Origin: Burkholderiales bacterium
Lineage (GTDB): Bacteria; Pseudomonadota; Gammaproteobacteria; Burkholderiales; Burkholderiaceae_C
Length of the DNA: 64,000 bases
Direction: 5' to 3'
NCBI GenBank assembly: GCA_947474755.1
Contig: CANJJE010000004.1
Coordinates: 124,001-188,000, forward strand
Made by a program: the position numbers and the translations under genes. Of the stretch, positions 46,940 to 64,000 are shown piece after piece. The notes beneath the pieces were generated by a model that searched no databases, was not told where the DNA came from, and saw only the letters and a program-made list of their open reading frames with translations. The stretch's first letter is position 1; every line of letters starts with the position of its first letter.

Positions 46940-48661
46940 TCAGAACGACTCCCAGTCGTCCGTGCCGGTCTTGGCGTGGTGGCCTGGGGTGATGGCAGCC
47001 GCCTGCCTGGCCTCGAAATTGGGGCGGGTGACGTTCGTGGCCCGCTGCGGGCTGCGGCGCTCGATTCTGGGAGCGTTTGCCGCTGGTGCTGCGGCATGGG
47101 CAGCGCTCGTCGCGCGCTCCTGCTGTGACAACTTGAACATCGCCACGACCTGCACCAGTTGCTCTGCCTGGCTCTTCAGACTTTCCGCCGCCGCGGCACT
47201 CTCTTCGACCAGCGCAGCGTTCTGCTGCGTGGCCTGGTCGATCTGGCTGACGGCCTCGCCCACCTGATGCACGCCAGAGTCCTGCTCTGCGCTGGCGGAG
47301 CTGATTTCGGCCACGATGTCGCTCACACGCCGGATCGAGGCGACGATCTCTTCCATCGTCTTGCCGGCTTGGTCGACCAGGGCCGTGCCTTGCTCCACCT
47401 GCTCGACGCTGTGGCCGATCAGGTTCTTGATTTCCTTGGCGGCCTCGGCGCTGCGCTGGGCCAGGCTGCGTACCTCCGAGGCCACCACAGCGAAGCCCCG
47501 ACCCTGCTCGCCGGCGCGGGCGGCTTCCACAGCCGCATTGAGCGCGAGGATGTTGGTCTGGAAGGCGATGCCGTCGATCACCCGGATGATGTCGCTGATC
47601 TTGCGGCTGCTGTCATTGATGTCCTGCATCGTGGTCACGACCTGACCGACCACAGCGCCGCCTCGCGCCGCCACCGCCGAGGCGCCCTGCGCGAGCTGGT
47701 TGGCCTGCCTGGCGTTGTCGCTGTTGTTGCGCACGGTCGTGCCCAGCTCTTCCATGGTGGCCGCCGTCTGCTGAAGGGCGCTGGCCTGCTGTTCGGTGCG
47801 GCTGGACAGGTCCTGGTTGCCCTGCGCGATCTGCGCGCTGGCGGTGGCCACACTTTCCGAGCCTTGCCTGACGCTTGAAACAACCGATTTCAAGGTGCTC
47901 AGCATGTTGTCGAGTGCGCTGGCCAGACTGTCCTTGTCGTTTCGCCCCTGCCTGAACACGTGAGTCAAGTCGCCCTGGGCAATGCGGTGGGCCAGATCAC
48001 TGGCAGCGGCTGGCTCCATCCCCAACTGGCCGGTGATGCTGCGAGACACGATGATGGTCAAACCCGTGAGCAACAGTCCGCCGAGGATGATCAACGCGGT
48101 GACTGTGAGCCGGGCGGATTTGGCTTCGCTGTCGTACGCGGCATCGATCTCCTTCGCTTCGGCCGAGAGGAGTTCAGCCAGCTTGTCGAAGCCAGCTGCA
48201 TATCTGTCTATCTGCTTGTCGATCTCGTCGTCGACGACAGCAATCTCGTCGCGCTTGGCATTTCTCTTCGCCAGAGGCAGAAACTGCTCGTCGTAGAGCT
48301 TGCGTATTTCACCTGCCGCCGCGCGGCCGGCCTGCGTAGCGGCTCTTGTTTCGGCGGTGACGGCCACGCTGTCGGCAAAGTCCAGCGCTTCGTCAATTTC
48401 CTTGTTGACTTCTGCCCATCGCTGCTGGGCCTCGTCGAACTGTTGATTGATGAAGCTGTCGGCCACCACTCTGTAAGCCTGCGCACCGAGATAGGTGTCA
48501 TGGTTGACCCTGCTCGCGGCACTGGCCAGGACACCGGCCTGATCCTGCAGCTTGGCCAGCTTCGACAGAACGATCCAGTTCACCGATCCAATGATCAGCA
48601 TGACCGAGATGGCGACGCCGACAATCAGAGTCAGCCGATTCGATACGGGCCACTTTTGCAT
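46940..48661 (-). CDS. Methyl-accepting chemotaxis protein
   Basis: A 573-residue chemoreceptor: transmembrane helix 1 (about 8-33), periplasmic four-helix-bundle-type sensor (about 34-185), transmembrane helix 2 (about 187-209, [20 protein letters not shown]), HAMP domain, and a coiled-coil signalling domain with the hairpin tip [20 protein letters not shown]. The protein ends in DDWESF, an xWExF pentapeptide like the CheR/CheB docking site of high-abundance receptors. The ligand is unknown. It follows the secretion cluster in the same direction, but a 195-bp gap with hairpins separates them. Confidence 0.95.
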
Positions 48662-48856: not shown

Positions 48857-49684
48857 CTAGAACTGCACCGAGCACTTCACGCCGGCGGGGATTTCGCCCT
48901 TGGGGTTGGGCAGGTCGAGTCGAGCGCGAAAGGTGCCGCTGGCGGAATCGACGACCCGGTCGACCACCGATACCGTGGCGGTGTACTGGCCTGACAGCGG
49001 TGCCTCGGTCGCGATCTTCGCGGGCGCGCCCACCTTGACCTTGCCGAACAGCCCGACCGGCAGCACCACATCGATGCGCAGCGGGTTCACCTGCGCCAGT
49101 TTCAGGATGGCGCGCGCGCTCTCGCCGGTCTGCGCGATCTCGCCAACCTGCTGCAGGCGATCGGTCACCACGCCATTGATCGGGCTGCGGATGCGCCGCT
49201 GCTCGAGCGTTTCCTGCAGCCGTCGCTGTTCCAGCTCGGCGAGCCTGCGGTTGTCTTGCGCTTCGACCACGCTGGCCTCGGCCAGCGACAGTTCGGCGGC
49301 CGTGTCGTCACGGTCCTGGGCGGCGATGAACTTCTCCTGAACCAGGTCGTCGCGGCGTGTCAGCTTGATCTTCGCGGCCTCGCGGCGGCTCTCGGCGGTT
49401 TTCACCTGCCCTTCCATCACCGCGCGATAGCGTGCCGCATCGAGCGCCGCCCGGTCTGTGGCGCTTTCGAGCTCGACGAGCACCTGACCCTTGCGCACTT
49501 CGGCCCCACGGTCCACGGTGATTGCATCGATGCGGCCTTCGACCACGCTGCGCAACTCGATACGCTGCGAGGGCTCGATGAGGCAGGCATAGCCGCTGGC
49601 AGGTGCCGCGTGGGCCGTGTGCGTCGTTGCGCAGGCCACCCACAGCGCGGTGTGGATGAGGGGGGTGGGGGTGTGGAATGTCAT
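48857..49684 (-). CDS. Small periplasmic HlyD/MFP-type adaptor
   Basis: A 275-residue exported adaptor with a signal peptide (about 1-27, TAHAAP). The order is: N-terminal beta-strands and half biotinyl-lipoyl fold (SVVEGRIDAITVDRGAEVRKGQVLVEL), a helical hairpin (about 70-145), the second lipoyl half (RIRSPINGVVTDRLQQVGEIAQTGE), then a beta-barrel to PAGVKCSVQF. This is the layout of membrane-fusion proteins that link an inner-membrane motor to TolC. It starts 22 bp after the SecA-like gene and is the last gene of the cluster. No pump gene is adjacent, so its partner must be in the cluster or elsewhere. Confidence 0.85.
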   Translation of the reverse strand: MTFHTPTPLIHTALWVACATTHTAHAAPASGYACLIEPSQRIELRSVVEGRIDAITVDRGAEVRKGQVLVELESATDRAALDAARYRAVMEGQVKTAESRREAAKIKLTRRDDLVQEKFIAAQDRDDTAAELSLAEASVVEAQDNRRLAELEQRRLQETLEQRRIRSPINGVVTDRLQQVGEIAQTGESARAILKLAQVNPLRIDVVLPVGLFGKVKVGAPAKIATEAPLSGQYTATVSVVDRVVDSASGTFRARLDLPNPKGEIPAGVKCSVQF

Positions 49685-49706
49685 GGTGTCGGAATCAGGG
49701 TGACGC

Positions 49707-51698
49707 TCAAAGGGGGTCGCCGGAAAACCCCATCGATCTTTCCAGTTCGCGGTCCTGACGCAGGGTGTCGCGTCGTGTGCGGGCATGCATGCGTTCGGCA
49801 CGGCTCTGCGCCGCTCGCCGGCATTGGACCACCCAACCGACAGGAACCGCACCCTTGAGTTTCGTCCAGCGCACCAGGCCTTCGTGCGAGGTGCCGCCGT
49901 GCTGCGTGAACAGGTCGTCGTCGATCGCAATCATGGCCACGCACTCGCCAGGCTGTCCCTGGCGGGCGCATCGCCCCAGCAGTTGACGATCGATCCGCGG
50001 TGACTCGTGGTACTCGGTCAGGATGACGAACAGGCCCCCCAGCGCCTCCACGCCCTCGCCGAGAGAGATGTCGGTGCCGCGGCCGGCCATGTTGGTGGCC
50101 ACCGTGACCGCGCCGCGTTGCCCGGCCTGTGCCACCACCTCGGCCTCGTCGGCGTCCTGGCGGGCATTGATCACTGCATGCGCCACGCCCATCGACTTCA
50201 GCCGCTGGCTCAGTGCGTCGGAGGCTTCCACCGATCGCGTGCCGACCAGCACCGGCTGACCGCGGGCCTGTCGCCGCGCGATTTCCTCGGCCACGGCCTG
50301 CCATTTCTCCCCGCTGTGGCGACAGACGACATCGGGCAGACGGCGCCGGGCACTGGGACGATGGGTCGGTATCGTGACCGTGTCGAGGCGGTACACGACC
50401 GACAGCTCGCCGGCCATTTCCCGCGCGGTACCCGTCATGCCCGACAGACACAGGTAGCGCGCAAAGAAGCGCTGGTAGGTGATGCGTGCCAGCGTTTGCG
50501 TACGCTCGGAAAGGGCCAGGCCCTCCTTGCATTCGATCATCTGGTGCAGGCCCTGCTCCCAGGTGCGGCCCGGCAGCACGCGCCCGGTGTACTCGTCGAT
50601 GATCTGCACCGCGCCCTCTGCGTCGACGAGGTAGTGCTGGTCGCGCAGGAACAACCGCAGCGCACGCAGCGCCTGCGTCATCAGGTGTTCGCGCACATGG
50701 AACGCGCGCCACGGCCCGCCCCAGCCCGTGGTGGCCGCGATGACGCGTTCGCGACCGGTGCGTGTCAGACGCACCTCGCGGCGCGACTCGTCGATCAGGT
50801 AGTCCTCGTCGGGCGTCAGCGTGGCCGCCAGTGCGAGGGCGCGCGGCAGCTCATCGGCGTTCTCGACCGGTCCGGCCTTCACCGCGAGGATCAGCGGTGT
50901 GCGCGCCTCGTCGATCAGGATGCTGTCGGCCTCGTCGACGATGGCGTAGTGCAAGCCTCGCAGCGCCGGTGGCGTCGACAAAGCACCGAAGAGTTGCCGC
51001 CCGCGCAGCTGTGCCACGCTGGCCCGGCCGCCCTCGGCGACCCTGTCGCGCAGGTAGTCGAACACCATTTCCTTGCCGGTGCAGTAAGCGATGTCGCAAG
51101 CGTAGGCCGCCCGCTTTTCATCGGGTGCCTTGCCGTGGATGACCACACCGACGCTCAGGCTCGCGAAGCCGAACAGAGGGGCTTGCTTCTGCGCATCGCG
51201 CTCGGCGAGATAGTCGTTGACGGTGACCACATGCACCGGTACACCGGCGCTGGCGATCAGGCAGGCGGCCAGACCGGCGGTCAGCGTCTTGCCTTCGCCG
51301 GTCTGCATTTCCGCGAGGCGCCCGCGCACCAGCGTGGCCACACCCACCAGCTGGGTGGGATAGGGACGCATGCCCAGTGATCGGGATGCGGCTTCGGCCA
51401 CCAGCAGCAACGCATCGTGCAGCGCGGCTCGGTGCTTGTGTTGCAAGGCGGTCGTGGCCGCGGCACGCAGCCGGCTGACCACATCGCCATCGTCGAGTGC
51501 AGCCAGTTCGCTCGCCCTTTGTGCCATCAGGCGGTCGAGTTCGGCGATCTCGCGCGCCGGGTTGCTTGCCAACAGCCGGCGTGCGCCTGCCATGACCCCG
51601 AGTGCCCATTGATCGGCCATGTGAACCGCCCTGTCCTCGCGCTCCGGAAACGCGGTGCGCGCGAGTCGCAGCGATGGGGTCATCAGCACGGTCGACAT
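49707..51698 (-). CDS. Truncated SecA-like translocase ATPase
   Basis: A 663-residue SecA paralogue (housekeeping SecA is about 900). Conserved motor parts are present: QLVGVATLVRGRLAEMQTGE, Walker A GEGKT (Lys137), DEADSILIDEARTPLI (from Asp255), the preprotein cross-linking region, NMAGRGTDIS (about residue 540) and an arginine-finger region LLGRCARQGQPG in place of QLRGRSGRQGDPG. After the start of the long scaffold helix the protein stops, so the helical wing, the regulatory helices and the zinc-binding C-terminus are missing. It lies 10 bp after the M50 gene. I infer a dedicated motor for the cluster's substrate; the sequence only proves a SecA-type ATPase. Confidence 0.9.
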   Translation of the reverse strand: MSTVLMTPSLRLARTAFPEREDRAVHMADQWALGVMAGARRLLASNPAREIAELDRLMAQRASELAALDDGDVVSRLRAAATTALQHKHRAALHDALLLVAEAASRSLGMRPYPTQLVGVATLVRGRLAEMQTGEGKTLTAGLAACLIASAGVPVHVVTVNDYLAERDAQKQAPLFGFASLSVGVVIHGKAPDEKRAAYACDIAYCTGKEMVFDYLRDRVAEGGRASVAQLRGRQLFGALSTPPALRGLHYAIVDEADSILIDEARTPLILAVKAGPVENADELPRALALAATLTPDEDYLIDESRREVRLTRTGRERVIAATTGWGGPWRAFHVREHLMTQALRALRLFLRDQHYLVDAEGAVQIIDEYTGRVLPGRTWEQGLHQMIECKEGLALSERTQTLARITYQRFFARYLCLSGMTGTAREMAGELSVVYRLDTVTIPTHRPSARRRLPDVVCRHSGEKWQAVAEEIARRQARGQPVLVGTRSVEASDALSQRLKSMGVAHAVINARQDADEAEVVAQAGQRGAVTVATNMAGRGTDISLGEGVEALGGLFVILTEYHESPRIDRQLLGRCARQGQPGECVAMIAIDDDLFTQHGGTSHEGLVRWTKLKGAVPVGWVVQCRRAAQSRAERMHARTRRDTLRQDRELERSMGFSGDPL

Positions 51699-51708
51699 CG
51701 GGGCAGGC

Positions 51709-53883
51709 TCAGGTGTCGAAGTGCGACAGCAACAGGCGCCGCACCGCGCGGCCCATGCGCCACGCGATCGGCTCGGGGTCGTGCTCGAAGCGCACATGCA
51801 CGCGGCTGCCCAGGAAGTCATGAGGCACGTTCGCCGGCAGCAGCAACTCGAACTCGAACACCGACTCCAGCGTGGTCAGGCCCTTGTCGTCGCGCGGATC
51901 GGTCTGCGCAGGGCCGCCGCCCTTGCTGCCGAGCACCGGGCTGGGCAACTGGTGCACCGCGCCCGGCGTGCTGCGGGTGAGGGTGGCATCGAAACGCGAC
52001 GCGGTGTCCTGCACCAGCCGGACCTCGACTGCCCGGGTGTCGAGCCTCACCGGGTCGACCTCGCTTTGCGGCACCACCAGGCGCACCAGTGGCGCCTCGG
52101 GCGTGTGCAGATAGCCCACCACATCGCCTTGCTTCAGGTAGCGCCCGGGCAGGTCTTCCGGTGATTGAACGAGCAAGGTGCCGGCAGCATGCGTGCGCAG
52201 GGTCAGGCGTCGAGCGTCGTCCTGCAAGCGCTCCAGCGAGGCCGTTTCGCGGGCCAGTTGCTGCTCCAGCTGCTGCGCCTTCGCCTGCGACTGGCCCCAG
52301 GCGGCGTCGTACTGAGCCCGCACCTCGTCGGCCTTGGCCTCCTGCACCGCGATGCGTGCGGCCAGTTCGGGCTCCACCATGTCGATCACCGCGGCGCCCG
52401 AATCCAGTTCTGATCCCGGCTGGGCCAGCAAGCGGCGCACGAAGCCTGCGCTTTCTGCCCGCACGATCGCATGTTCGGGCAGCCACAGCACGCCGGTGGC
52501 CATGGTGTGATGCGGCAGCGGCACGACGAAGAGCAACAGGACGACCAGACCCAGCCCCGTGCCCATCACGCCGCGAACGCGAGGGCCGCGATCGGCATAC
52601 TGCGGCCCGGTCACCAGTGCCTTGATGGCCTTGAACAGGGGCCAGAGCACGCTTTGCGTCACCGTCCAGACCGCCAGCATGACGCCGACCACGAAAAACT
52701 GCGTGGCCACGAACAGCGCGATCGTGAACGAGATGAACAGCCGGTACACGTATGACACCGGCGCATACAGCACGAACCAGCGCTTCTCGCCCGGCGTGGC
52801 CTGCGGCTCGTCGGTGCGCTTGACGCCAAACACGAAGCGTTCGGCCAGGTACTGCCAGTAGCGGTTGGCGCGACTGCCGAGGTTCGGTGCCTCGATGATG
52901 TCGATGAGGATGTAGTAGCCGTCGAAGCGCAGCAGCGGGTTGGCATTGAAGAAAAGCGTCGTGACACTGGCCAGCACCGCCACGTTGTAGGCAATGCCGC
53001 GCGGTGTGCCGTGTTCGAGCAGCAGCCAGGCATAGAAGGCCAGCGCCGCCACGAACAGCTCGGCCAGCATGCCGGCCGCTCCCACCAGAGCCCGCTGCCA
53101 TTTGTTGACGAAGGTCGAGGCGTTCGATGCGTCGACATATGGCACCGGGTAGAGCGCCAGCAGCATGACGCCTGATTCGTGCACCTCGCCACCGAAGGCC
53201 TTGCAGGCGAGCCCGTGGCCGAACTCGTGGACCAGCTTCACCAGCGGAAACAGCAGTGCCAGCATCAGCAGGTTGTCGGTCGCCAGCAGCTGATCGGTGG
53301 AGTTGGCCGACAACTGTGACCACTGCGCCGGCACCATCAGCAGTGCCGGCAGCACGACGGCGAGCCACGTCAGCACCCAGGGCAGGGCGCCGGCGTGGCG
53401 GGCGAACCGGCGAGCGGCCCGCACCATGTGGCTCAGCAGTGAATCGGGGTCGAACAGCGGGATGCGCAGGCCCAGCGGATTGCCGACTCGGGCGAACCAC
53501 TTGCTGCGCAGCTGCTTGCGCCGACGCTGCAGCAGTTCGGCCACGTCCGGCGTGACATCCATCTGCACGAGGTCGGCTGCGTGCAGCGTCGACAGCAGCC
53601 GCAGCACGTCGGACTGCGCCGGTGTCTCGTCGCTGAGTTCGGCACACAGCGCGTCCCAGATGTCGTCCATGCTTCGGCTGCCGTCCATCAGGTCGATCAC
53701 CCGATAGGCCTGGAAGTTGAAACGCTGGTGCTTGGCCGCCATGCGGTCTTCGATCACGTACCAGACCTCGCCGCGGTACTCGTGGCGGTGGATGCGAACA
53801 TGGCCACGCAGACGCGGCCGCAATTGCCGCATGCGGTACCAGTTGTCTGACAGCAGCGGGCCGCTCATCTGGCGCCTGGGCAC
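51709..53883 (-). CDS. M50 metalloprotease with PqqD-like and HlyD-like domains
   Basis: A 724-residue polytopic membrane protein. The N-terminal 110 residues look like a PqqD/RRE-type winged helix (YVIEDRMAAKHQRFNFQAYR, MDGSRSMDDIWDAL). Transmembrane segments follow, one carrying the zinc motif HEFGH (His219, Glu220, His223) and a later FNANPLLRFDGYYIL that supplies the second M50 motif. After a last membrane segment near residue 450 comes a lipoyl/coiled-coil/lipoyl region (about 465-700) like HlyD. Relatives occur as site-2-protease-HlyD fusions next to peptide or large-protein exporters. Start GTG 53883 lies 4 bp after the previous gene; ATG 53868 is an alternative. Confidence 0.85.
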   Translation of the reverse strand: MPRRQMSGPLLSDNWYRMRQLRPRLRGHVRIHRHEYRGEVWYVIEDRMAAKHQRFNFQAYRVIDLMDGSRSMDDIWDALCAELSDETPAQSDVLRLLSTLHAADLVQMDVTPDVAELLQRRRKQLRSKWFARVGNPLGLRIPLFDPDSLLSHMVRAARRFARHAGALPWVLTWLAVVLPALLMVPAQWSQLSANSTDQLLATDNLLMLALLFPLVKLVHEFGHGLACKAFGGEVHESGVMLLALYPVPYVDASNASTFVNKWQRALVGAAGMLAELFVAALAFYAWLLLEHGTPRGIAYNVAVLASVTTLFFNANPLLRFDGYYILIDIIEAPNLGSRANRYWQYLAERFVFGVKRTDEPQATPGEKRWFVLYAPVSYVYRLFISFTIALFVATQFFVVGVMLAVWTVTQSVLWPLFKAIKALVTGPQYADRGPRVRGVMGTGLGLVVLLLFVVPLPHHTMATGVLWLPEHAIVRAESAGFVRRLLAQPGSELDSGAAVIDMVEPELAARIAVQEAKADEVRAQYDAAWGQSQAKAQQLEQQLARETASLERLQDDARRLTLRTHAAGTLLVQSPEDLPGRYLKQGDVVGYLHTPEAPLVRLVVPQSEVDPVRLDTRAVEVRLVQDTASRFDATLTRSTPGAVHQLPSPVLGSKGGGPAQTDPRDDKGLTTLESVFEFELLLPANVPHDFLGSRVHVRFEHDPEPIAWRMGRAVRRLLLSHFDT

Positions 53884-53887
53884 TGCC

Positions 53888-55711
53888 TCACGGCAGCAGC
53901 TTCCACCAGGTCAGACGCACCCAGTCGACCAGCGGGCGTGTCCATATCCACATCAGGCTGGCGTGGCCGGCATCGACCTTGCCCACGCCTTCCATGTTGG
54001 GCCGCAGGCGTGGCGCGCCCGGGCCGAGTTCCGCCTCGACGCGGAAATGGTTGCGCCCGTCTTCGGCGACCGAGATCGGCGTCAGCTTCTTGACGCTGAA
54101 AGGCCACGATTGACCCGGGAGGCTGGCCAGCACCAGCTCGCCTGCGGCACCGACCTTCACATGGCCGATGTCGCGCTCGTCGACTTTCAGGATCACCCGC
54201 CAGGCGTCCAGCGGCGCCAGCTCGAACAGCACCTTGCCCTGCTCGACAGGGGAGCCGAGCTGCTGCGTCAGGTCGCCCTTGACCACCGTGCCGTCGAAGG
54301 GCGCAATGATGTTGACGCGTTCGAGCTTGGATACCGCCAGATCCATCTGCGCGCGCGCCTGGTTCGCCTGTGCGCCCGCCAGCCTCTGCTCGACCGCATT
54401 GCCGTTGGCCATGGCCTCGCGCTCCTTGCGCAGAGAGACTTCCAGCTCCGACTCCCAGCGGACTTTTTCGAGCTTGAGGTCGCGGTCGTCGAGGGTGGCC
54501 AGCACCTGACCTGCCTTCACCACATCACCCGCGCGCGCCGGTGCTTCGCGCAGATAGCCCTCGAACGGCGCCACCGCTGCACGCTGCACCGAGCCTTCGA
54601 CCAGAGCCTGCGATGAGATGCGGAACGGCACCGGGATCACCGCCAGCAACAGCAGCACCACGCCCAGCGTCGCCGCAGCCAGCTTGATCGCCGGATAGCG
54701 CGGCCCCAGCACCACTTCAAGGCTGTGCCGGGCGGTGCGTCGGGCGCGAACGACTGCGCCCTCGTGTGCCTCGCGCTGCAGCATCAGTGCGGGAGCCAAC
54801 CCGATGGCAACGCTTTCCAGATATTCGATTGCTGCTGGCGTGAAGGCGGTGCGGTGCTCCAGCATCAGCACGCCCGAGACCTGGCCGTCATGCAGCAGTG
54901 GCACGCTCAGCAAGGTGTGCGCGCCGACTTCCTCGGCATAGCGCCGATGCGCGGTGCTCACGCCGGTATCGGCCGACCCGTCGCCGGGCGGCCAGACGAT
55001 GCGCCGACGCTGATCCATGGCCTCGTGCATGGCCTGTATGGCCTGGCGCAGAACGCCCGCCTTTTCGTCGAACCAGGCCGCATGGCTCAACGCCAGCAGC
55101 TGCAGCGTCTTGCCGCGTGTCACCGCGAGATGCACCTGCGGGCTGTCGAATTCACGCCCGAGTCGGTTCACCAGCGCCAGCGCGGCTTCGCGCGGCGAGC
55201 GCTCGGCCAGCAGGCCCAGCAGGGTGTCGAGCAGGAAGCTGCCTTGTTGCAGGCACTGACGCTGCTTTGCCAGCTCGCGCTGGTGCAGCAGGCCCACCAG
55301 CCAACCGGCGCCCCAGTTGACGAGCTTGAGCGCCTGATCCACGCTGGTCTGCTGAACGCGGCCGAGCTGCAGCACGACCGCGCCTTGCAACTGCTCGCCG
55401 CTGAGCAGCGGGAACGCCATCTCCACATGGCCGAGGTCATCGCGACGCAATGCGGCGTCGCGGGTTTTCAGCGCCTCGGTGGCGATCTCGCGCAGGTGGC
55501 TCAGATCCCTGTCGGCCGGGTGTGCTGCCACCGGCGCGTAGGCGCCATCGGCCTGTGCCATCAGCAGCAGGCCGGCGTCGGCATGGACGAGATCCTGGCA
55601 AAGCACCTCGAGCCATGAGCGGCACAGCGCATCGGCGGTCAGCGCCTGAGCCAGTGCGCTCCAGGGGTCGCCGGTGGGGATGTCCGGGGTGTTATCGATC
55701 ACTGCAGCCAT
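53888..55711 (-). CDS. GAF-domain / HlyD-type adaptor fusion
   Basis: A 607-residue protein with a cytoplasmic N-terminal half that appears to hold two GAF-type sensor domains (about 20-150 and 165-325; AHTLLSVPLLHDGQVSGVLM is typical), one transmembrane helix (about 345-367), and a periplasmic membrane-fusion part: QRAAVAPFEGYLREAPARAG, a coiled-coil hairpin, NIIAPFDGTVVKGDL, and a terminal barrel. A sensor joined to an adaptor could let a cytoplasmic signal gate export. It starts 105 bp after the TolC gene and is followed after 4 bp by the M50 gene. Confidence 0.85.
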   Translation of the reverse strand: MAAVIDNTPDIPTGDPWSALAQALTADALCRSWLEVLCQDLVHADAGLLLMAQADGAYAPVAAHPADRDLSHLREIATEALKTRDAALRRDDLGHVEMAFPLLSGEQLQGAVVLQLGRVQQTSVDQALKLVNWGAGWLVGLLHQRELAKQRQCLQQGSFLLDTLLGLLAERSPREAALALVNRLGREFDSPQVHLAVTRGKTLQLLALSHAAWFDEKAGVLRQAIQAMHEAMDQRRRIVWPPGDGSADTGVSTAHRRYAEEVGAHTLLSVPLLHDGQVSGVLMLEHRTAFTPAAIEYLESVAIGLAPALMLQREAHEGAVVRARRTARHSLEVVLGPRYPAIKLAAATLGVVLLLLAVIPVPFRISSQALVEGSVQRAAVAPFEGYLREAPARAGDVVKAGQVLATLDDRDLKLEKVRWESELEVSLRKEREAMANGNAVEQRLAGAQANQARAQMDLAVSKLERVNIIAPFDGTVVKGDLTQQLGSPVEQGKVLFELAPLDAWRVILKVDERDIGHVKVGAAGELVLASLPGQSWPFSVKKLTPISVAEDGRNHFRVEAELGPGAPRLRPNMEGVGKVDAGHASLMWIWTRPLVDWVRLTWWKLLP

Positions 55712-55816
55712 GGGTGGCGAGGATGCACCATCCTCGGCGTCTCGGGAACCGCCTGGCTGCAGGCAGAACCGGGAAGATGCCGCGTAATCCCTGCAACAGC
55801 GCCCTCGGTATGGCCC

Positions 55817-57223
55817 TCAATCGGTCAGCAGCGCATCGAGCGCGCGCAGATCGGCGTCAGCAAGGGTGCCCGCGGCAGCCTTCAGTTGCAAGGCGGCCAC
55901 CAGCGTCTTGTAACGCGCCGCGGCGAGGTCCTTGCGCGTGGCAAACAGCTGTTGCTCCGCATTGAGCACGTCCACCCGGGTGCGCACGCCCACCTGCAGC
56001 CCGCGCTGCGTGCTCTTGAGCTGCGTCTCGCTCGAGATCAGCGCCTGCTTCAGGGCCTGCGTGAGTGCGCTGCCCGATTGCACCCCCAGCTGCGCCTGCT
56101 GCGCATCGAGCGTGGCCTGCCGCTGGGCGTTGCTCAACTCCTGCAGGGCGCGGTTGCGGTCGGCGATCGCCTCGCGGGTGCGAGAACTCACCACGCCACC
56201 CTGGTAGATGGGGATCGTCAGCTCGACCCCGATGCTGGCCTCTCGGGTGTTGCTGCCACCGAACTGCCCGTAGTTCTGGTTGCGGTCATCGCGCACCGTG
56301 CCCACCAGATCGAGCGTCGGGTAATGCCCCGCTTCGCGACGGCTGATCTCCTTCTCGGCCACCTGCGTGGTGGTGCGCGCAATGATCACCTGCAATGCAT
56401 TGTTCGGCGCATCGGCCACCATCTGGCGCTGCATCTCCGGCGTCAGCTGATCCACACTGGCGGCTGCGCCCAGGCTGGCCAGCGCCGGAAGCGGCTGCGC
56501 GATGTAGCGCTCGAGCACCCGCTTCTTCGACTCCAGCTCATTGACGGCGGCGATGCGTTGCGCGACAGCCAGGTCGTGGCGACCCTGCGCCTCGTTGAAA
56601 TCGGTGATCGGCACCGTGCCGACCTCCAGGCTGCGCTTGGTCTGGGCGAGCTGCTGGACCATCGCATCCTGCTGCGCCGTGGCGGCGGCCAATTCGTCTT
56701 GCGCCTGCAGCACATCGAAATAGCCGCGCGACACGCGCAGCAGCAGATCCTGCTCGGCCAGCTGCAGTTGCTGCTCGGCGAGCTGCACCTGCAATTCGGC
56801 CTGGTCGGTGCCCGCCCAGTTGGCCGGCCGGATCAGTGCCTGGGTGAGGGTCAGTGCGGCGCTGTTCGCACTGAAGGTGCGCCCGCCCGAATACTCCGAC
56901 GATCGATTGTTGCTGCGCTTGGGGTTGTAGGTGGCGTTGATGCTGGGCAGGTTGGCTGCGCGGGCCTGCGGGAGCTTCTCCCGCCCGGCGTCTGTTGCGG
57001 CCACTGCTGCCGCGTACTGCGCGTCGTTGGCGCGCGCCATGTCGAGGATGGCACCGAGGCCGGTCCCCCGGCTCGTTGCTGCCGAGGCGGCCGGCGCAGC
57101 CGCTGCGAGCACGGCGTCCTCGGCCAAGACAGCACCACTGGCGAGCATCACGAACATCGCGACCGTCCAGGGGTGCGATGCGCGGCGAGGGGTGATCGAG
57201 TACCGAGCTGCTGTGAACTTCAA
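55817..57223 (-). CDS. TolC family outer-membrane channel
   Basis: A 468-residue outer-membrane efflux protein with a signal sequence (about 1-35) and two similar halves of the TolC helical barrel. Landmarks are LPSINATYNPKRSNN, LTLTQALIRPANW, QDLLLRVSRGYFDVLQAQDE, and in the second half PTLDLVGTVRDDRNQNYG and VELTIPIYQGGVVSSRTREA. Length and motifs match type I secretion TolC proteins. It starts at TTG 57223, overlapping the stop codon of the giant gene by two bases, with GGGAG upstream inside that gene. Confidence 0.92.
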   Translation of the reverse strand: MKFTAARYSITPRRASHPWTVAMFVMLASGAVLAEDAVLAAAAPAASAATSRGTGLGAILDMARANDAQYAAAVAATDAGREKLPQARAANLPSINATYNPKRSNNRSSEYSGGRTFSANSAALTLTQALIRPANWAGTDQAELQVQLAEQQLQLAEQDLLLRVSRGYFDVLQAQDELAAATAQQDAMVQQLAQTKRSLEVGTVPITDFNEAQGRHDLAVAQRIAAVNELESKKRVLERYIAQPLPALASLGAAASVDQLTPEMQRQMVADAPNNALQVIIARTTTQVAEKEISRREAGHYPTLDLVGTVRDDRNQNYGQFGGSNTREASIGVELTIPIYQGGVVSSRTREAIADRNRALQELSNAQRQATLDAQQAQLGVQSGSALTQALKQALISSETQLKSTQRGLQVGVRTRVDVLNAEQQLFATRKDLAAARYKTLVAALQLKAAAGTLADADLRALDALLTD

Positions 57224-60200
57224 ATCCGAATCTCCCAGTCGTTCGCCGAAGCTCGCGCGCGGCCCGCCTGAGCAGCCACTGCTGTCGGCACCACCGCTTG
57301 CACCGCAAAGTCAAGATCCTCAGTGTGCAGCCGATCCAGTCCTTCGACTCGTACCGCCTGATCGCACATCGTGCGACCGCGACGCCGCCTGTTGTTGGCC
57401 AGCGGGCCCAGAGCGGCGCTCATCGCTCCGCCCCAGCCACCGGACAGCGCCGCGAAGATGTCGGCATAGTCTTTGATGGCCTGCGCTTCGTACGATAGCT
57501 CGCTGCTCGCGTCCGCGGCCCCGAGGCCTGCAGACACCGGCACGGTAAATCGGCCCTGGAAGTCTCCGCCGGCGCGGCCGTCGTAGTCGCCATCCAGGCG
57601 AGACCCCTCGGGCGTGACGAAGGCGCCGGAGTCCGAGCGCAGCAGCACGCGGTACTCGCCGGCCGGCAAGGTGCCCGCGTCGGTGTCGAAGCGCAGGCCT
57701 TCGCCATCCGGGTCGATCACCAGCTTGCCCGGCACCACCTGGTCGCCGCGCATCAGCAGCAAGGCCGAGCCCGAGGCCGCTTGCAAGGCCGCAGCAGCCA
57801 GCGCCTGGTTGAAGCGCACCCGCAGGCCAAGTTCGGTGGCCACCATCGAATTGATCTGCAGTGCGGCCGTGGAAGACGGGCCCGCCACACCGGCGGCCGT
57901 CGGGTTCGATTCGATCAATGCCTGCATCGCCTCGGCAGTCAGCGGCGCGCTGCCGTCGGCATTGATGCCTGGGCGGCCGTCTGCGACCACCACCGCGACG
58001 ACGCGGTTCGAGCGGTGGGCGGTCTGATCGATGAGGTCGACGCCGAGGTTGAAGCCCGGCCGTTCGGCGGCCCGGGTCTCGAGGCGCGGGCGGCGGCTGT
58101 CCGATTCGCTGCGCTCGCGTTCGCTGTCGCGTTCGCGGGATTCGCGCTCGCGCTCCTTCTGCCGCCCGCGGCCGTCGTCCTCAACCCGTGGGCGCTGTGA
58201 CGGAGCCGATGCCGCGGGCAGCACCTCGCGCGTTACCGTGGGTGCGGTCCAGGTGCCATCGGCGTCGACGGCACGCACCACGATGCCGGTGGCGGCGCGC
58301 GCGGCGCTGTAGGTGTGGCTGGCATTGACCGCGGCTCCGGCGCCGGCGCCTGCGACGCCGGACTGCGTGCCGTCACCCCAGTCGATGAGCCACTGGCTGA
58401 TGGTGTCTGCGCCCGGGTCGGTGGCCGACAGGCTCAGGGTCACCGGCGTGCCGGCGCGCACCGTGGCGGGCGCCGACACCGCGATCACCGGCGCGACATT
58501 GGCCACGGTGATGACGAAGCTGACCGGTGCTGAAGATGCACCGGCCGCATCGACCGCATGGGCGGTGAAGTTGCCCACGGCAGGGCCGTTGACGGCATTC
58601 CAGCGCACCACGCCAGCCGCGTCGATGCTGGCGCCGGGCGGTGCCTGGTCGAGCACGTACGTCAGCGCATTACCGTCGGCGTCAGTGCCGATCAGGGCCA
58701 CGGAGTGGATGGTGCCTTCGAGCACGCTCGCATTGGCCACGGGCGCCAGCACCGGCGGGTGGTTGACCGGGGTGACGGCGAGGCTGACGATGACGGCATC
58801 GCTTTGCAGCAGGCCGTCGCTCGCGCGGTAGCTGAAGCTGTCCGGGCCGCTGTAGCCGAGTGCCGGGGTGTAGGTGAGGGTGCCATCGGGGTTGGTGACC
58901 AGTGCGCCGTGGGCCGGGCCGCTGACCACCACCACCGACAGCGCATCGCCGTTGGGGTCGTTGTCGTTGCCCAGCACGGCGAGCACCTTGGCCGTGTCCC
59001 GCGGGGTGCTGTAGCTCTCGCCTGCAGCCACCGGTGCGTCGTTGACCGCGCTGACCTTGATCTCGACCGTGACCGGATCGCTGAACAACTGGCCATCCCC
59101 GGCACGGTAGCTGAAGCTATCCGCGCCGACATAGCCGAATGTCGGCGTGTAGATGAATCGCCCGGCGGTGTCGCGGGTCAGCGCGCCGTGTGCCGGCTGG
59201 GTGACGGCCTCAGCCGTCATCGCCTGGCCATCGGGCTCGGCGTCGTTGGCAAGCACATCGATGGTCACCGGCTGATTGCGCAGCGTAAGCGCGCTGTCGG
59301 CCCGTGCGATCGGAGGGTGGTTGACCGGAGGATTGACCGGCAGCACCTCGCGGGTGATCACCGGCGCCGTCCAGGTGCCGTCTTCGTCGATGGCCTGCAC
59401 GGTGATGACGGCCGCCGTCAGCGCTGCAGCGTAGGTGTGGCCGGTGCTGGTCGCCGTGCCGGCCACCGTCGATTGCGTGCCATCGCCCCAGTCGATTCGC
59501 CACTGCGAGATCGTGTCTGTACCCGGGTCGGTGGCTGACAGTTTGATGCTGAAAGCTTCGCCGGCGCGGATCGTCGTCGGCACCTCCACCGTGAATGTCG
59601 GCGACACGTTGACGACATTCACGGTGAAGCTGCGGGCGGCTGATGAGGCGCCCTTCGAGTCGACGGCGCGCACGGTGAACACGGCCGAGGCCGGGCCGTC
59701 GACTGCAGCCCAGGTGATGCGGCCCTGCGCATCGATCGTGGCGCCTGCCGGTGCAGCGTCGAGCACGTAGGTGATCGCGTCGCCTTCCGGATCGGACGAG
59801 ACCAGCGGCACGGTGATGGTGCTGCCTTCGTTCACGGTGATCGGCGCGACGGCTGCGAGCGTGGGGGCCTGGTTGGCATCGAAGGCCACATCGTCGATCG
59901 TGACCTGGCTGCCCAAGCTGCCGAGGCCCAGCAGGTCGAAGTAGATCGTCGCCGCCTGGCCGGCAGGCAGGCCCGACAGATCGATGGTCACGGTGACCGG
60001 AGCAAACAGATCCGCCGGCAGCTTGCCGCCGACCAGGCCGCTGACCGTCACCGCAGCGCCGGCGCGCACCGTGCCGTCGGCCTGGATGTTCAGCAGCGCG
60101 TCGGTACCGCTCAGGCCGACGACGCCGCCGAGGGCCGACATGGTCGACGGATCGAGCAGGGCAACCTCGAAGGCGTCCTGCGGGCCGCTGCCATTGCTCT

Positions 60201-63200
60201 TGAATTGCGCGCCGGTGAGCTTGAACGACAGCGTCTTCGACGACGCTGGCAGCGTGAACGACTGGCTCAGGCGCGAGGCCAGGCTTGGGTTTTCGCTGAG
60301 CACGCCCTGGCCATTGACCACGCTGGCGCCACCCGTAGCCGACCAGCCGAAGGTGGGCAGGATGGCATCGGACACCCCGAACGAACCGTTGGTGATGCCC
60401 ACTGGCGGCGGGTCGGCGTTGACATTCGCCGGGCCGATCTGCACGTCGGTGGTTGTTCCCGTTCCCAAGCCGCCACTCAGCGTTGCCGCGAGGATCGCTG
60501 CATCGAGCTGCGATGGCAGCTTGCGTTGGAACAAGCCCAAGCTGTCGGCCATCAGGTCGCCGGCGTGGTCGCTGTCGCTCAGGTGGTTGCCGTCGTTGGT
60601 CAACATCACGCGCACGCCGGGGGCGGTGAACACCTTCGAGCCATCGGCGGTGGTGGTGACGTAGCGGTCGAATCCTGCATAGCCGCTCAGGAAGCCCAGC
60701 GTGTGACCCAGCTCGTGCGCGATGACAGTGAACAGGTCGTACTTGCCGGCGGCGGCCGAGTTCGGGTCGCTGAACTCCGACGCGTCGAGCGGCGTCGGGT
60801 CGACGAACCAGCCGTGGCCATCGGCGTTGACGTCGAGGACGATGCGGCCTTCCGAAGGCTTGCCATTGGCGTCCAGCTGGGTGATGTAGGCCTGGCCGAG
60901 TTGGCCGGCTGGCAGATCGGCGATGGAGAGGCGCCAATTGCCAGATCCAGACTGTTCGGCGGCTTGGGTCCACAGAGCTCCGGCTATGTTGACCATCGAC
61001 AGTGCTGCAGTGATGCCCGGCGATCCAGCGGCAGAGGTGGCGCCGCCCCTGTCACCGGCAGCCAAGCGGCCACCCGAGCCCGCGACGCTGCCAGGCGGCG
61101 CCACGTTGGTTAGAGGCATGGGTTGCGGAAGCGGCACGTTATCAAGCTGAAGGTGGGCGCCCTGGTCCCTGAAGTACTGCAGTGAGAGGCCGCCATCAGC
61201 ATCCAGTTGTCCTGGCGCAAACACTCGCTCTGGCAGGGCAACCGACTTTCCGGGCGCAACCCCGCCCTGCGCAACCACCCACTCTGGGTTCATATACATG
61301 TTGCCATTGGGCTTGATCGGGGGGAACAAGAAGGTGATCCCATCCTCAGCCAAGGTGCCGGCGACGCCACGGGCCTGAACGCGCGCCACTTGCATGGCGT
61401 CTGCGCGACGCACCATCTCGGCGATTCGCAGCTCGTCGGGAACCTGTTCCAGCGACACGGGATTCGGTGAGGCAACGCCACCCATTGACGTTTGGATGTG
61501 ACCGCGCCTCAGTTGCTCGCTGTTCGCGAACTCCAGCACTTGGTCGATCTGGGCCTGTCGTGCCGCGCTGGGCGCTGGCGTCGGGACGCCTGGGGTCGCC
61601 ACCCTCAACTCCGACGCCGGGATGTAGCGACCATCCGAGAACACCATCTCAGGCTTGGTGGACACCGGCGTGCTGGCGATCAATGCGTCCAGATCGAGTT
61701 CCAGGGGATCTCGCATGGGCGGAGTCGCCAACGATGCCGGCGCGCGTGAGACAGCCGATCCGTTCTCCGCCATGCGCGCCGCGCGGCTTTCTTCTGCGGC
61801 TTTGAGTGCCTGGCGGTAGTCGCCGGCGCGTTCAGCGTAAAACGTTCTCGCGCCTTCGTAGCTGGCGGTGGTCGACTTTTTCCATCCTTCGGCCCACTGC
61901 AGCCCGCCGTCGGTGGAAGCAACTCTGATTCGCACCTCATTGCGATTCTTCAGCGTGGTCATGCCATCGCCGGTGAACACATTGACAGGGCCCGGGTCTC
62001 CGATTTTTGCGATTTCTGCGCGACTGACGTAGCCCCCCTTTTCGGCACCCATCGTGAAATGAGCACCGTGGTAAATCGACGGCTTGGCGTCTCCAGCCTG
62101 CATCAGCTTGCGGTTCAGCGGATCGACGACCTTGGTCAGAATATCGTCGTTCGTCAGGTACTTGCCGGTGGTGCGGTCACGCACCCAGCCCAGATCCAGG
62201 TCGCTGCGCAGCCACTGGCCGTCCGGCCCCTTCAGCAAACCGAGGACAGATTTGGCCTTGACCGCTTCGGGTTTGCCTGCCCAGCCCCGGGCCACGCCGA
62301 AGCCCGTGCCAGCGGCAGTCACGCGATCCGTGGCGCGGATGGCGATCTCGAGGTTGTTTTCCTTGGCGAACGCCTTGATCACGGCCTGCTGGCGCTCGGT
62401 GGCACCGCTCACGGGGCCCCACTTTTCCATCGACCAGTTCTTGATCGCGTCGCTGACGCCATCCGTGAAGCTCTTCGGCTTGGGCGGGGTGGTATTCGCC
62501 AGAACGCTCTCGATGCCGGTGTAACGAGGTGGCTCGATGCCTTTGGTGAGCCATGCCTGCTTGACTTCGGCGGTCTTCGGTGTCAGGCCGCTGGCTTCCA
62601 TTTCCTGCCGCATGCCGGATGCCGCATCCGATGTGGCAGCGCGCTTGGCCTCGGCGGCATTGCGTGCCTCCTGCATCTGCCGAATCTCGTAGTCGATCCG
62701 CATCGACTCCCGCGTGCGGGCGGTGGCTTGCGCTTGCTCGGCAACCCGGGCGTTGCGGACTTCTCCCGCGCCGCGGTTCAATTGGGTGGCGCGTTCGGTG
62801 TTGCTGGCGGCTGCGGCGCCGCGCGAGCCTTCGGCGATGGCCCGCTCGCCCCGGCTGGCGGACATGGCCGTTTCAAGCTTTCCGGCCGTGGCGACGCTGC
62901 GTTCGAGGTCAGTCGCTTTGCTCACTTTGCTCAGCCCCTGCGCCCCTTCGGCAAAACGCTCTGCCAGGGCAAACCCTTTGCTGAGTTTTCCAGCCGCACC
63001 CGCGATCATGAATGGATCGACGAACAATCCAGCCACATTGGCGACGGTGACGCCAACATCGAGCGAACCCCTGAGGTCTTCAGGCATGACTTTGCGGAGT
63101 TCGGCCACCTGCTCGTCCCAGCGAGTGGTCAGCCCCTTCGAGGGCGAGATGGTGGTGGGCGCCTGGATGAAGGCGTCGAGGGCGCCTGCGCAGGGATTGT

Positions 63201-64000
63201 TCAGTTGCGCCTTGATCTTGTTGATCGAGCTGTCGTAGAAAGTATCAGACAGTCTCTTGGACCATTCCGAGCCGGTAACCCCGTGCACGTTCTCGAATAC
63301 TCGACCTGCCACAGCTTCGCCTGCAAAAACCGCTGTGTCGAAGCCAAACCAGGCCAGATCGGCGATCCCGGTGACGAAGGTGACTCCGAAGTGCGTGGTG
63401 CCCGCGACGCCCGCGACACCCATCTTGACCGGCGCTATCGCGATGTCGTACGCGGTCTGTCTGATGGTCTGCCCGATCACGCTACCGAGTTCGCTGTTGC
63501 CGGTCGGGTCCATCCGGTCCAGCGGCCGGTTGCTGACATAGCGGTACAGGTTGGCATCGCCCGCCGCAAAGCCGATCGGGTCGCGGCTCACGAATCGTCC
63601 GAGCGAGTTGTCGTACCACCGCGCGCGGTAGTCCATCAGGCCCGTCTGCATATCGAGCTCTCGCCCTGTGTAGCCGAAGCGGGGTGACTGCCCAGCCTGG
63701 GTCTGCGAACTGATCTTGCCGAAGCTGTCGTAGACGATGTGGTCGATCGCCTGGCCGTTGGCGCCGACGACATCGCGCACGCTGTTCTGGTGGTCGGCCA
63801 GGCTCCAGCGCAGCTGATTGCCGCGCTGCTCGGACAGCACCGCGTCCATGCCCGGGCCGTGCAACATCAGCTCGGTCAGCTGCCCGCTGCCGTTGAACAC
63901 CATCGAGATGTCGTCGCGGTCGTGGATGTAGCTTTCGGTGACGGCGGCCTGCCCACCCGCACCGTCGGCGTCGCGGGTGGCGCCCACCTTCCAGCCGAAG
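57220..64000 (-). CDS. Giant Rhs / metzincin / Ig-PKD-cadherin surface protein (N-terminus outside window)
   Basis: The frame is open through base 64000, so the N-terminus is missing; at least 2255 residues are visible (numbered from 63987). Order: end of an Rhs core with FGYTGRELDMQTGLMDYRAR and VSRDPIGFAAGDANLYRYVS (about 20-165); a helix-rich region; a possible toxin-like segment (about 545-660); a metzincin-like domain with HELGH (His1091, Glu1092, His1095; about 1000-1165); a jelly-roll-like domain; Ig-like, PKD (DWGDGTQS), two cadherin-like repeats (about 1560-1745), a second Ig-PKD pair (to 1920); an Arg/Glu/Ser-rich linker (about 1925-1975); and an SbsA-Ig-like end (LPAGEYRVLLRSDSGAF). 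It is probably the substrate of the export genes that follow immediately. Confidence 0.85.
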   Translation of the reverse strand, partial: FGWKVGATRDADGAGGQAAVTESYIHDRDDISMVFNGSGQLTELMLHGPGMDAVLSEQRGNQLRWSLADHQNSVRDVVGANGQAIDHIVYDSFGKISSQTQAGQSPRFGYTGRELDMQTGLMDYRARWYDNSLGRFVSRDPIGFAAGDANLYRYVSNRPLDRMDPTGNSELGSVIGQTIRQTAYDIAIAPVKMGVAGVAGTTHFGVTFVTGIADLAWFGFDTAVFAGEAVAGRVFENVHGVTGSEWSKRLSDTFYDSSINKIKAQLNNPCAGALDAFIQAPTTISPSKGLTTRWDEQVAELRKVMPEDLRGSLDVGVTVANVAGLFVDPFMIAGAAGKLSKGFALAERFAEGAQGLSKVSKATDLERSVATAGKLETAMSASRGERAIAEGSRGAAAASNTERATQLNRGAGEVRNARVAEQAQATARTRESMRIDYEIRQMQEARNAAEAKRAATSDAASGMRQEMEASGLTPKTAEVKQAWLTKGIEPPRYTGIESVLANTTPPKPKSFTDGVSDAIKNWSMEKWGPVSGATERQQAVIKAFAKENNLEIAIRATDRVTAAGTGFGVARGWAGKPEAVKAKSVLGLLKGPDGQWLRSDLDLGWVRDRTTGKYLTNDDILTKVVDPLNRKLMQAGDAKPSIYHGAHFTMGAEKGGYVSRAEIAKIGDPGPVNVFTGDGMTTLKNRNEVRIRVASTDGGLQWAEGWKKSTTASYEGARTFYAERAGDYRQALKAAEESRAARMAENGSAVSRAPASLATPPMRDPLELDLDALIASTPVSTKPEMVFSDGRYIPASELRVATPGVPTPAPSAARQAQIDQVLEFANSEQLRRGHIQTSMGGVASPNPVSLEQVPDELRIAEMVRRADAMQVARVQARGVAGTLAEDGITFLFPPIKPNGNMYMNPEWVVAQGGVAPGKSVALPERVFAPGQLDADGGLSLQYFRDQGAHLQLDNVPLPQPMPLTNVAPPGSVAGSGGRLAAGDRGGATSAAGSPGITAALSMVNIAGALWTQAAEQSGSGNWRLSIADLPAGQLGQAYITQLDANGKPSEGRIVLDVNADGHGWFVDPTPLDASEFSDPNSAAAGKYDLFTVIAHELGHTLGFLSGYAGFDRYVTTTADGSKVFTAPGVRVMLTNDGNHLSDSDHAGDLMADSLGLFQRKLPSQLDAAILAATLSGGLGTGTTTDVQIGPANVNADPPPVGITNGSFGVSDAILPTFGWSATGGASVVNGQGVLSENPSLASRLSQSFTLPASSKTLSFKLTGAQFKSNGSGPQDAFEVALLDPSTMSALGGVVGLSGTDALLNIQADGTVRAGAAVTVSGLVGGKLPADLFAPVTVTIDLSGLPAGQAATIYFDLLGLGSLGSQVTIDDVAFDANQAPTLAAVAPITVNEGSTITVPLVSSDPEGDAITYVLDAAPAGATIDAQGRITWAAVDGPASAVFTVRAVDSKGASSAARSFTVNVVNVSPTFTVEVPTTIRAGEAFSIKLSATDPGTDTISQWRIDWGDGTQSTVAGTATSTGHTYAAALTAAVITVQAIDEDGTWTAPVITREVLPVNPPVNHPPIARADSALTLRNQPVTIDVLANDAEPDGQAMTAEAVTQPAHGALTRDTAGRFIYTPTFGYVGADSFSYRAGDGQLFSDPVTVEIKVSAVNDAPVAAGESYSTPRDTAKVLAVLGNDNDPNGDALSVVVVSGPAHGALVTNPDGTLTYTPALGYSGPDSFSYRASDGLLQSDAVIVSLAVTPVNHPPVLAPVANASVLEGTIHSVALIGTDADGNALTYVLDQAPPGASIDAAGVVRWNAVNGPAVGNFTAHAVDAAGASSAPVSFVITVANVAPVIAVSAPATVRAGTPVTLSLSATDPGADTISQWLIDWGDGTQSGVAGAGAGAAVNASHTYSAARAATGIVVRAVDADGTWTAPTVTREVLPAASAPSQRPRVEDDGRGRQKERERESRERDSERERSESDSRRPRLETRAAERPGFNLGVDLIDQTAHRSNRVVAVVVADGRPGINADGSAPLTAEAMQALIESNPTAAGVAGPSSTAALQINSMVATELGLRVRFNQALAAAALQAASGSALLLMRGDQVVPGKLVIDPDGEGLRFDTDAGTLPAGEYRVLLRSDSGAFVTPEGSRLDGDYDGRAGGDFQGRFTVPVSAGLGAADASSELSYEAQAIKDYADIFAALSGGWGGAMSAALGPLANNRRRRGRTMCDQAVRVEGLDRLHTEDLDFAVQAVVPTAVAAQAGRARASANDWEIRI
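58215..58755 (-). repeat. Internal Ig-PKD module, copy 2
   Basis: Encodes a second Ig-like domain (DGNALTYVLDQAPPGASID) and PKD domain (ISQWLIDWGDGTQS, then DADGTWTAPTVTREVLP), the duplicate of the module at 59335-59885. The pair flanks the cadherin-like repeats, which points to duplication of a block. Confidence 0.75.
59335..59885 (-). repeat. Internal Ig-PKD module, copy 1
   Basis: Encodes an Ig-like domain (EGDAITYVLDAAPAGATID) followed by a PKD domain (ISQWRIDWGDGTQS, then DEDGTWTAPVITREVLP). It matches copy 2 closely at protein and DNA level and precedes the two cadherin-like repeats in translation order. Confidence 0.75.

Follow-up and report, generated by a model that had tools for sequence, protein, structure and literature searches.

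The six consecutive minus-strand genes at positions 48857–64000 of a 64,000-nucleotide stretch of a Burkholderiales bacterium genome (the window; G000:C4:124001-188000, from a source genome of 3.06 Mb in 28 contigs) are rather likely to encode a dedicated exporter of giant proteins that carry the LEPR-XLL leader motif. As judged from sequence comparison and a folded model, an M50-HlyD protein, HlyD-type adaptors and TolC would form the export route, and a short SecA paralogue (SecA-short) would act as a common but dispensable helper. The cargo is probably picked out by a short tag near its N-terminal end, and the evidence supports the M50-HlyD protein, the HlyD adaptors and the outer-membrane channel as the constant parts. 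An earlier note on this DNA had proposed an export cluster without an ABC transporter. This proposal agrees with our results: the cluster is widely conserved around M50-HlyD and SecA-short, and the giant is its likely, predicted cargo. The note had overlooked the LEPR-XLL leader, the true size of the giant, the RRE/PqqD domain, the other module of this genome and a sister family that has no SecA beside its M50 gene.

The gene order and families given in the earlier note were all recovered from the open reading frame list and from Pfam/NCBIfam searches, and gaps recomputed from the starts fell within its range of −4 to 105 bp. The giant gene, which would encode the LEPR-XLL substrate and of which the window contains the 3′ part (57220..64000), is followed by the genes for a TolC-family outer-membrane channel (55817..57223; OEP/TolC, OEP 4e-48, TIGR01844 282 bits vs. 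a cut-off of 225), a GAF-HlyD adaptor (53888..55711; GAF 2.3e-10, HlyD_3 4e-16) and a PqqD(RRE)-M50-HlyD membrane protein (51709..53883; PqqD 1.2e-6, Peptidase_M50 1.6e-6; start GTG 53883 or ATG 53868). SecA-short, a secondary SecA_DEAD protein (49707..51698; ATG 51698), matched SecA_DEAD (3e-86), PP_bind and P-loop models and contains TGEGKT and DEAD motifs. The last gene encodes a small HlyD/RND_mfp-type periplasmic adaptor with a hydrophobic N-terminus (48857..49684; ATG 49684; TIGR01730 126 bits vs. a cut-off of 94.9). The giant and TolC genes overlap by 4 bp, and the following gaps are 105 bp (TolC–GAF), 4 bp with the GTG start or 19 bp with ATG (GAF–M50), 10 bp (M50–SecA) and 22 bp (SecA–HlyD).

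The window end cuts through the giant gene, which is a single unbroken 44 kb frame (C4:181220-225499; start outside the window at C4:225433-225499) of 14,759 codons, or about 14,737 if counted from a TTG preceded by GGAG. The giant was scanned as four pieces, with one codon at the locus border omitted. Pfam matches included Laminin_G, SO2946-like, CARDB, He_PIG, Big_9, dockerin, PKD and cadherin-like domains together with 36 RHS-repeat stretches, spread over three of the pieces as 1, 27 and 8, and NCBIfam matches comprised an RHS core and a metalloprotease-like stretch below cut-off (39 vs. 80 bits). The part inside the window carries RHS repeats and core, the metalloprotease-like stretch and cadherin/Ig/PKD-like domains. 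The N-terminus, outside the window, matches LEPR-XLL (NF012209; 25.5 bits vs. a cut-off of 17) at residues 74–90 of the longest frame.

A genome-wide scan of the source genome yielded exactly two LEPR-XLL matches, the giant and a DUF4347 protein (19.9 bits), each in its own module copy. The second copy has the same gene order, with GAF-HlyD (C1:197743-199245), M50-HlyD (C1:195538-197730), SecA (C1:193556-195529) and HlyD (C1:192663-193721) genes followed by that of the 1,680-aa DUF4347 protein. Identity between the copies is 36% for M50, 33% for GAF-HlyD and 41% for SecA; of the three SecA genes in this genome, one is full length and two are short.

Co-occurrence was evaluated in a class sample of 274 genomes and a phylum sample of 329 Pseudomonadota genomes, which have at least four genomes in common. 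Type-1 M50 genes were defined by a score of at least 640 bits, a cut-off placed at a score gap; matches below it and fragments were dropped, except for G094, which was counted from two contig-end pieces. GAF-HlyD was called at 263 bits or above (three matches of about 109 bits, in G060, G181 and G238, were dropped) and SecA-short at 655 bits or above, the next match being a full-length SecA at 627 bits. In the class sample, type-1 M50 was found in 21/274 genomes, GAF-HlyD in those 21 and in G177, and SecA-short in 17 of the 21 and in 0 of the 253 others. LEPR-XLL matches were present in 16/21 type-1 genomes vs. 7/253 others (Fisher 1.4e-16), and in the phylum sample in 34/36 genomes with type-1 M50 vs. 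17/293 without (Fisher 3.7e-31). Removal of the four shared genomes from the phylum sample (N taken as 325) left 32/34 vs. 16/291. With any M50 relative counted at E 1e-20, LEPR-XLL was present in 49 of 88 phylum-sample genomes with a relative and in 2 of 241 without. The co-occurrence of type-1 M50 and LEPR-XLL is thus far beyond chance in both samples.

Adjacency pointed in the same direction. Across both samples, 30 of the 66 type-1 M50 genes share a contig with a LEPR match, in every case at no more than 15.5 kb from the LEPR frame and in 26 cases at no more than 6.1 kb (frame ends estimated from listed frame lengths). Both type-1 M50 genes of G291, whose genome is a single contig, have a LEPR frame within 2.3 kb. 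LEPR cargo also occurs far from a module, as in G240 (five matches, two modules) and G107 (two matches, one module), and LEPR-XLL frames reach 19,427 codons in the phylum sample. A scan for related loci returned 79, of which 54 (L011–L064) are type-1. In 49 of these 54, the frame directly after M50 belongs to the SecA family; L016, L046 and L064 break off at the end of a contig, and no such frame is present in L050 and L052. GAF-HlyD, M50, SecA and HlyD stand in order on one strand in 28/54 type-1 loci, including L044; five type-1 SecA frames with a higher-scoring second domain, missed by the order script, were placed from a separate motif reading. The gene order of the module is far beyond chance. 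Of the 54 loci, 12, among them L045, contain a LEPR-like start (a minus-strand frame in L033, VEHRVLRSGD, was dropped as chance), and many others end within a long frame that starts beyond the locus.

The M50 protein combines a domain of leader-binding type, an intact protease motif and an adaptor part. Its folded model (pLDDT 87.8) has a MacA/MexA-like adaptor as its C-terminal part, so the M50-HlyD label of the earlier note was right. Residues 21–112 resemble leader-bound lasso-peptide B1 proteins and residues 454–711 resemble MacA; the RRE/PqqD domain was recovered by both fold and family match. The HExxH motif and a second metal-ligand motif are present, with H219, E220, H223 and D321, which we take to be the second metal ligand, invariant in 28/28 aligned rows. 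Among the 50 Foldseek matches listed there were only adaptor proteins, and the M50 membrane part, which may have a match beyond these 50, was unmatched there. The nearest NCBIfam models are the daptide and YydH/LiaK proteases, both below cut-off (daptide 148.7 vs. 300), and the closest relative of the M50 protein in the 79-locus scan and M50 tree is from a Rubrivivax sp. metagenome-assembled genome (93% identity).

A sister (type-2) M50 family was also recognized. In the M50 tree, from which L076 was excluded, a branch with support 97 sets 24 of the 25 loci L065–L089, together with the G224 and G177 copies, apart from the rest. Seven of them (L065, L071, L075, L078, L083, L085 and L088) have the order long frame, frame of about 500–590 aa, HlyD-like, HlyD-like and M50, and at these seven no SecA was found beside the type-2 M50 gene by reading frames and profile scores. 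Type-2 families, OEP included, were assigned by Pfam in L065 only and elsewhere by reading frames and profile scores. SecA-short occurs elsewhere in some type-2 genomes (G283, G285) and not in others (G284, G286, G224). The cargo motif linked to type-2 M50 is LEPRIMLDAA, LEPRLMFDAA or LEPRLLFDGA, and in the initial set position 8 was D in 5/5 type-2-linked vs. 0/34 other motifs. A follow-up comprised 40 new LEPR matches, namely 20 of the 21 from type-2-only phylum-sample genomes (the 21st, G224, being in the initial set) and 20 of the 53 from other type-1 genomes. Position 8 was D in 19/20 vs. 2/20, and one of the two D-bearing motifs in the type-1 group adjoins a type-2 M50 gene in the same genome (G291). 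The cargo motif subtype follows the M50 subtype. At L076:13313-18340, in a Planctomycetota genome (G285) with several SecA-like genes, an LEDRRVLSVD N-terminus follows a type-2 M50 gene. The LEPR motif may extend to that phylum.

Taken together, the shared genomes, the adjacency, the RRE/PqqD domain, the HExxH motif, the adaptor barrel and the match between motif and M50 subtypes suggested that LEPR giants are the cargo of the module. We speculate that in the cytoplasm the RRE-like domain of M50-HlyD would recognize the giant by its LEPR leader, and that SecA-short would hold the unfolded chain and, with an intact ATPase, might help to drive or ratchet it. The chain would cross the inner membrane at the M50-HlyD platform, where M50 might cleave the leader, and M50-HlyD, GAF-HlyD and HlyD would together form a periplasmic duct to TolC. 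A broader proposal is tentative and, in our judgement, falls somewhat short of an even chance: a leader-directed pathway for the largest bacterial proteins, with LEPR-XLL as its signal, an RRE-protease platform of the TolC duct and two dialects (LEPRxLLSAD and LEPRxLFDAA), into which SecA would have been recruited in one lineage, where it could become an ATP-free chain holder.

Several observations weigh against the assignment of LEPR giants to this module. Related genomes were counted as independent, and the Fisher significance is therefore overstated. Type-1 M50 occurs without a LEPR match in 5/21 class-sample and 2/36 phylum-sample genomes. In two of the five class-sample genomes, G264 and G258, the gene directly after HlyD starts LEPR-like (VEPRLLFSAG and QERRILFSAD); the clusters of G008 and G265 are on contigs only 13 and 6 kb long; and in G094, the M50 gene is split across two contig ends. 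Conversely, 4 of the 23 class-sample and 2 of the 51 phylum-sample genomes with LEPR-XLL have no M50 at E 1e-20. Among these observations is G213, rated 100% complete, which has a 7,373-codon LEPR frame and in which no M50 relative was found; its motif, LEQRLLLSTS, lies at C57:21725-21784 (L156). Furthermore, 36 of the 66 type-1 M50 genes are without a LEPR match on their own contig. Subtype exceptions were L190 (G423, 74% complete), L206 (G544) and, by eye, the type-2 locus L076 (LEDRRVLSVD). The N-terminal part of the M50 protein is fitted by 8hkr and 7vzq, which are not described as leader-binding, equally to the lasso-peptide proteins. In addition, a Pfam scan (E up to 0.01) of the one type-2 M50 protein examined (L065) gave no PqqD match, so leader binding in type-2 is unsupported.

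The alignment of SecA-short to PDB SecA chains covers their residues 62–603, and the protein stops at that point, within the first scaffold helix, which bears out the truncation described in the earlier note. SecA-short therefore lacks the parts that we take to be the helical wing, two-helix finger and C-tail. In SecA, these parts work with SecYEG. SecA-short also falls short of canonical SecA (572 vs. 814 bits, with a shortened chain) and of all SecA2 model cut-offs (best 505.6 vs. 1085 bits). It was missing from four of the 21 type-1 genomes of the class sample (G052, G094, G190 and G206; 100, 99, 93 and 99% complete), each of which holds a single full-length SecA in a direct PF07517 search.

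Of the 49 SecA-family frames that follow M50 in type-1 loci, 42 have an intact Walker A (TGEGKT), and in the other seven it is absent from the whole SecA-like frame (L039:7757-8458, L044:12127-14079, L056:12091-13938, L057:2899-5274, L059:10225-12450, L060:10492-14046 and L062:12112-14055). Motif II is lost in L044, L056 and L059, reads DELD in L057, L060 and L062, and is unreadable in L039, where a contig edge cuts the frame; motifs III and VI are changed or unrecognizable in all six readable copies. Because the P-loop is missing, these copies are presumably unable to use ATP. Five of them keep 25–31 of 63 conserved columns in PPXD, 32–39 of 91 in NBD1 and 15–19 of 87 in NBD2 (approximate borders), compared with 42/63, 60/91 and 53/87 in the active outlier L063, indicating that the preprotein-binding part is better kept than NBD2. 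On the M50 tree, made by a quick method and with the "act" label of L016 and L046 unverified as their contigs end inside M50, the Walker-A-less copies need at least two origins.

These results bear on the proposal that SecA-short is the motor proper, which would replace the type I ABC ATPase and drive the giant through an M50 pore into HlyD/TolC. This was the energy source named in the earlier note and by Kamneva et al. (PMC4452313), and it accords with the 42 loci with intact Walker A and with the restriction of SecA-short to type-1 genomes. Moreover, a genome in which the module lacks the gene may still carry it elsewhere: in G081, SecA-short stands on another contig than the module, and in G280, to which L050 belongs, a 670-codon SecA is encoded at a different place from the module. 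Each of G275–G279, which have a Walker-A-less copy, has at least one other SecA of SecA-short size (262–321 bits, motifs not inspected) that could help in trans. However, G274 and G282 have only a housekeeping-type SecA (in G282, a 606-codon frame near a contig start) besides the Walker-A-less frame, and the four genomes without SecA-short, the repeated loss of Walker A and the lack of a SecA beside type-2 M50 genes all argue against a motor. We consider this reading unlikely, and its strong form, an obligate motor, was rejected on the four of 21 genomes and seven of 49 loci: SecA-short is a common accessory.

A two-step route, in which SecA-short or housekeeping SecA would pass the giant through SecYEG and the HlyD proteins and TolC would serve the outer half only, appears less probable still. 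One SecA is held by 8 of the 9 searched genomes without SecA-short (none was found in G076), and one SecY was found in 11 of 12 genomes, as this route would need; no SecY was found in the twelfth, G081. However, SecA-short is without the parts that engage SecYEG, and the sequence preceding the LEPR motif is in most cases basic, with a signal-peptide-like, strongly hydrophobic stretch being rare: 1/39 regions exceeded the threshold vs. 25/41 small-HlyD controls, although 16/41 controls also fell below it. None of the 12 genomes has two SecY genes, and a SecY2-type accessory Sec system was rejected on that ground. We give very little credence to a module that is a regulatory or peptide-maturation device of the YydH/daptide protease kind and merely travels with surface-protein genes. 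Its nearest NCBIfam models, its GAF domain and its scanned neighbours (three of four being histidine kinase or GGDEF-EAL proteins and the other a ShlB protein) fit such a device, but its three adaptor barrels, the TolC gene beside the cargo gene in the window and in some other loci, the adjacency in 30/30 cases and M50 scores below both model cut-offs do not. Export of LEPR-XLL giants through an M50-HlyD/HlyD/TolC duct, with SecA-short as helper, remains the preferred reading.

Compared with type I secretion (HlyB-HlyD-TolC), which in the case of LapBCE exports large adhesins, the window unit shares TolC, HlyD-type adaptors and a very large predicted cargo. The type I signal is uncleaved and C-terminal on the cargo, whereas the proposed tag here is N-terminal, and no ABC transporter is present in the unit. 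The earlier note had reckoned with an ABC gene just beyond position 64000. Upstream of the giant there is indeed an ABC pair (ABC_tran, FtsX/MacB), but a minus-strand gene, presumably yigZ-like (no family scan), and a plus-strand frame without a Pfam match stand between the two. An ABC ATPase is not a conserved neighbour of the module: one occurred anywhere in the flank examined in only 4 of 69 M50-bearing loci, and of those four only L026 has it on the same strand within 2.5 kb. An ABC transporter hidden past the window end was rejected accordingly. Accessory Sec systems (SecA2-SecY2, Asp) devote a SecA paralogue to large repetitive surface proteins, the serine-rich-repeat adhesins. The SecA tie to large repetitive surface proteins is similar here, but there is no second SecY in the 12 genomes, and adaptor and TolC genes are present instead. 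Systems for ribosomally synthesized and post-translationally modified peptides (PqqD/RRE; daptide, YydH/LiaK) likewise join an RRE-type fold and an M50-like protease in one protein; the M50 protein here has an extra adaptor barrel, and its candidate cargo frames reach more than 10,000 codons.

The module itself is in print. A secondary SecA_DEAD/HlyD/Peptidase_M50/GAF module was described in 2015 by Kamneva, Poudel and Ward (PLoS One, PMC4452313), who identified no ABC transporter and proposed SecA as ATPase and M50 as pore, so that neither the architecture nor the mechanism in the earlier note, which knew of no named secretion type of this composition, is new. The same four genes, ordered as in M. 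extorquens AM1, are adjacent in the window and in the second copy, and in both descriptions no ABC transporter lies in the locus. SecA there is without SecA_SW or has a fragment of it, an OEP gene is sometimes close, and part of the secondary SecA genes are located away from the other genes; the window SecA is without SecA_SW. In the part of that article available to us, the broader role of the module is called completely unknown and no cargo, leader motif, RRE domain or Walker-A-less form is named; the word "giant" is absent from its main text. LEPR-XLL appeared as annotation only in the accessible parts of the literature found (PMC10868602, PMC9611531). No published link between LEPR-XLL and the module, and no description of an export route for a defined class of cargo, with two signal dialects, was found in the literature searched, with subscription journals mostly outside it. 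New here is the likely cargo class, the duct parts being standard. Joining the module and LEPR-XLL gives both a testable function, namely the ABC-free exit from Gram-negative cells of proteins with frames of up to 19,427 codons, and the cargo candidates rank among the largest known bacterial proteins. As a simple tag at the N-terminus, LEPR-XLL also makes it possible to search for cargo in trans, and the natural series of active, Walker-A-less and absent SecA is a tool to ask about roles of SecA paralogues beyond pushing.

A third giant of the source genome (G000:C1:158953-176040; 5,695 aa) has no LEPR motif, on which ground LEPR as a mere marker of large proteins was rejected. A TolC-like gene adjoins it, and it is perhaps a classical type I adhesin. 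In the window, a chemotaxis receptor-like gene (46940–48661; by reading, no family scan) lies on the same strand about 195 bp beyond the last gene of the module. At L036:15020-17125, the gene after the module encodes a ShlB/FhaC-type POTRA protein (two-partner secretion), and other Magnetococcales loci (L041, L043 and L055) have similar-sized frames at this position. Moreover, GGDEF-EAL or hybrid histidine-kinase genes adjoin the module or its SecA at L125:7020-10145, L050:6723-9809 and L123:5880-8819, which suggests cyclic di-GMP or two-component control.

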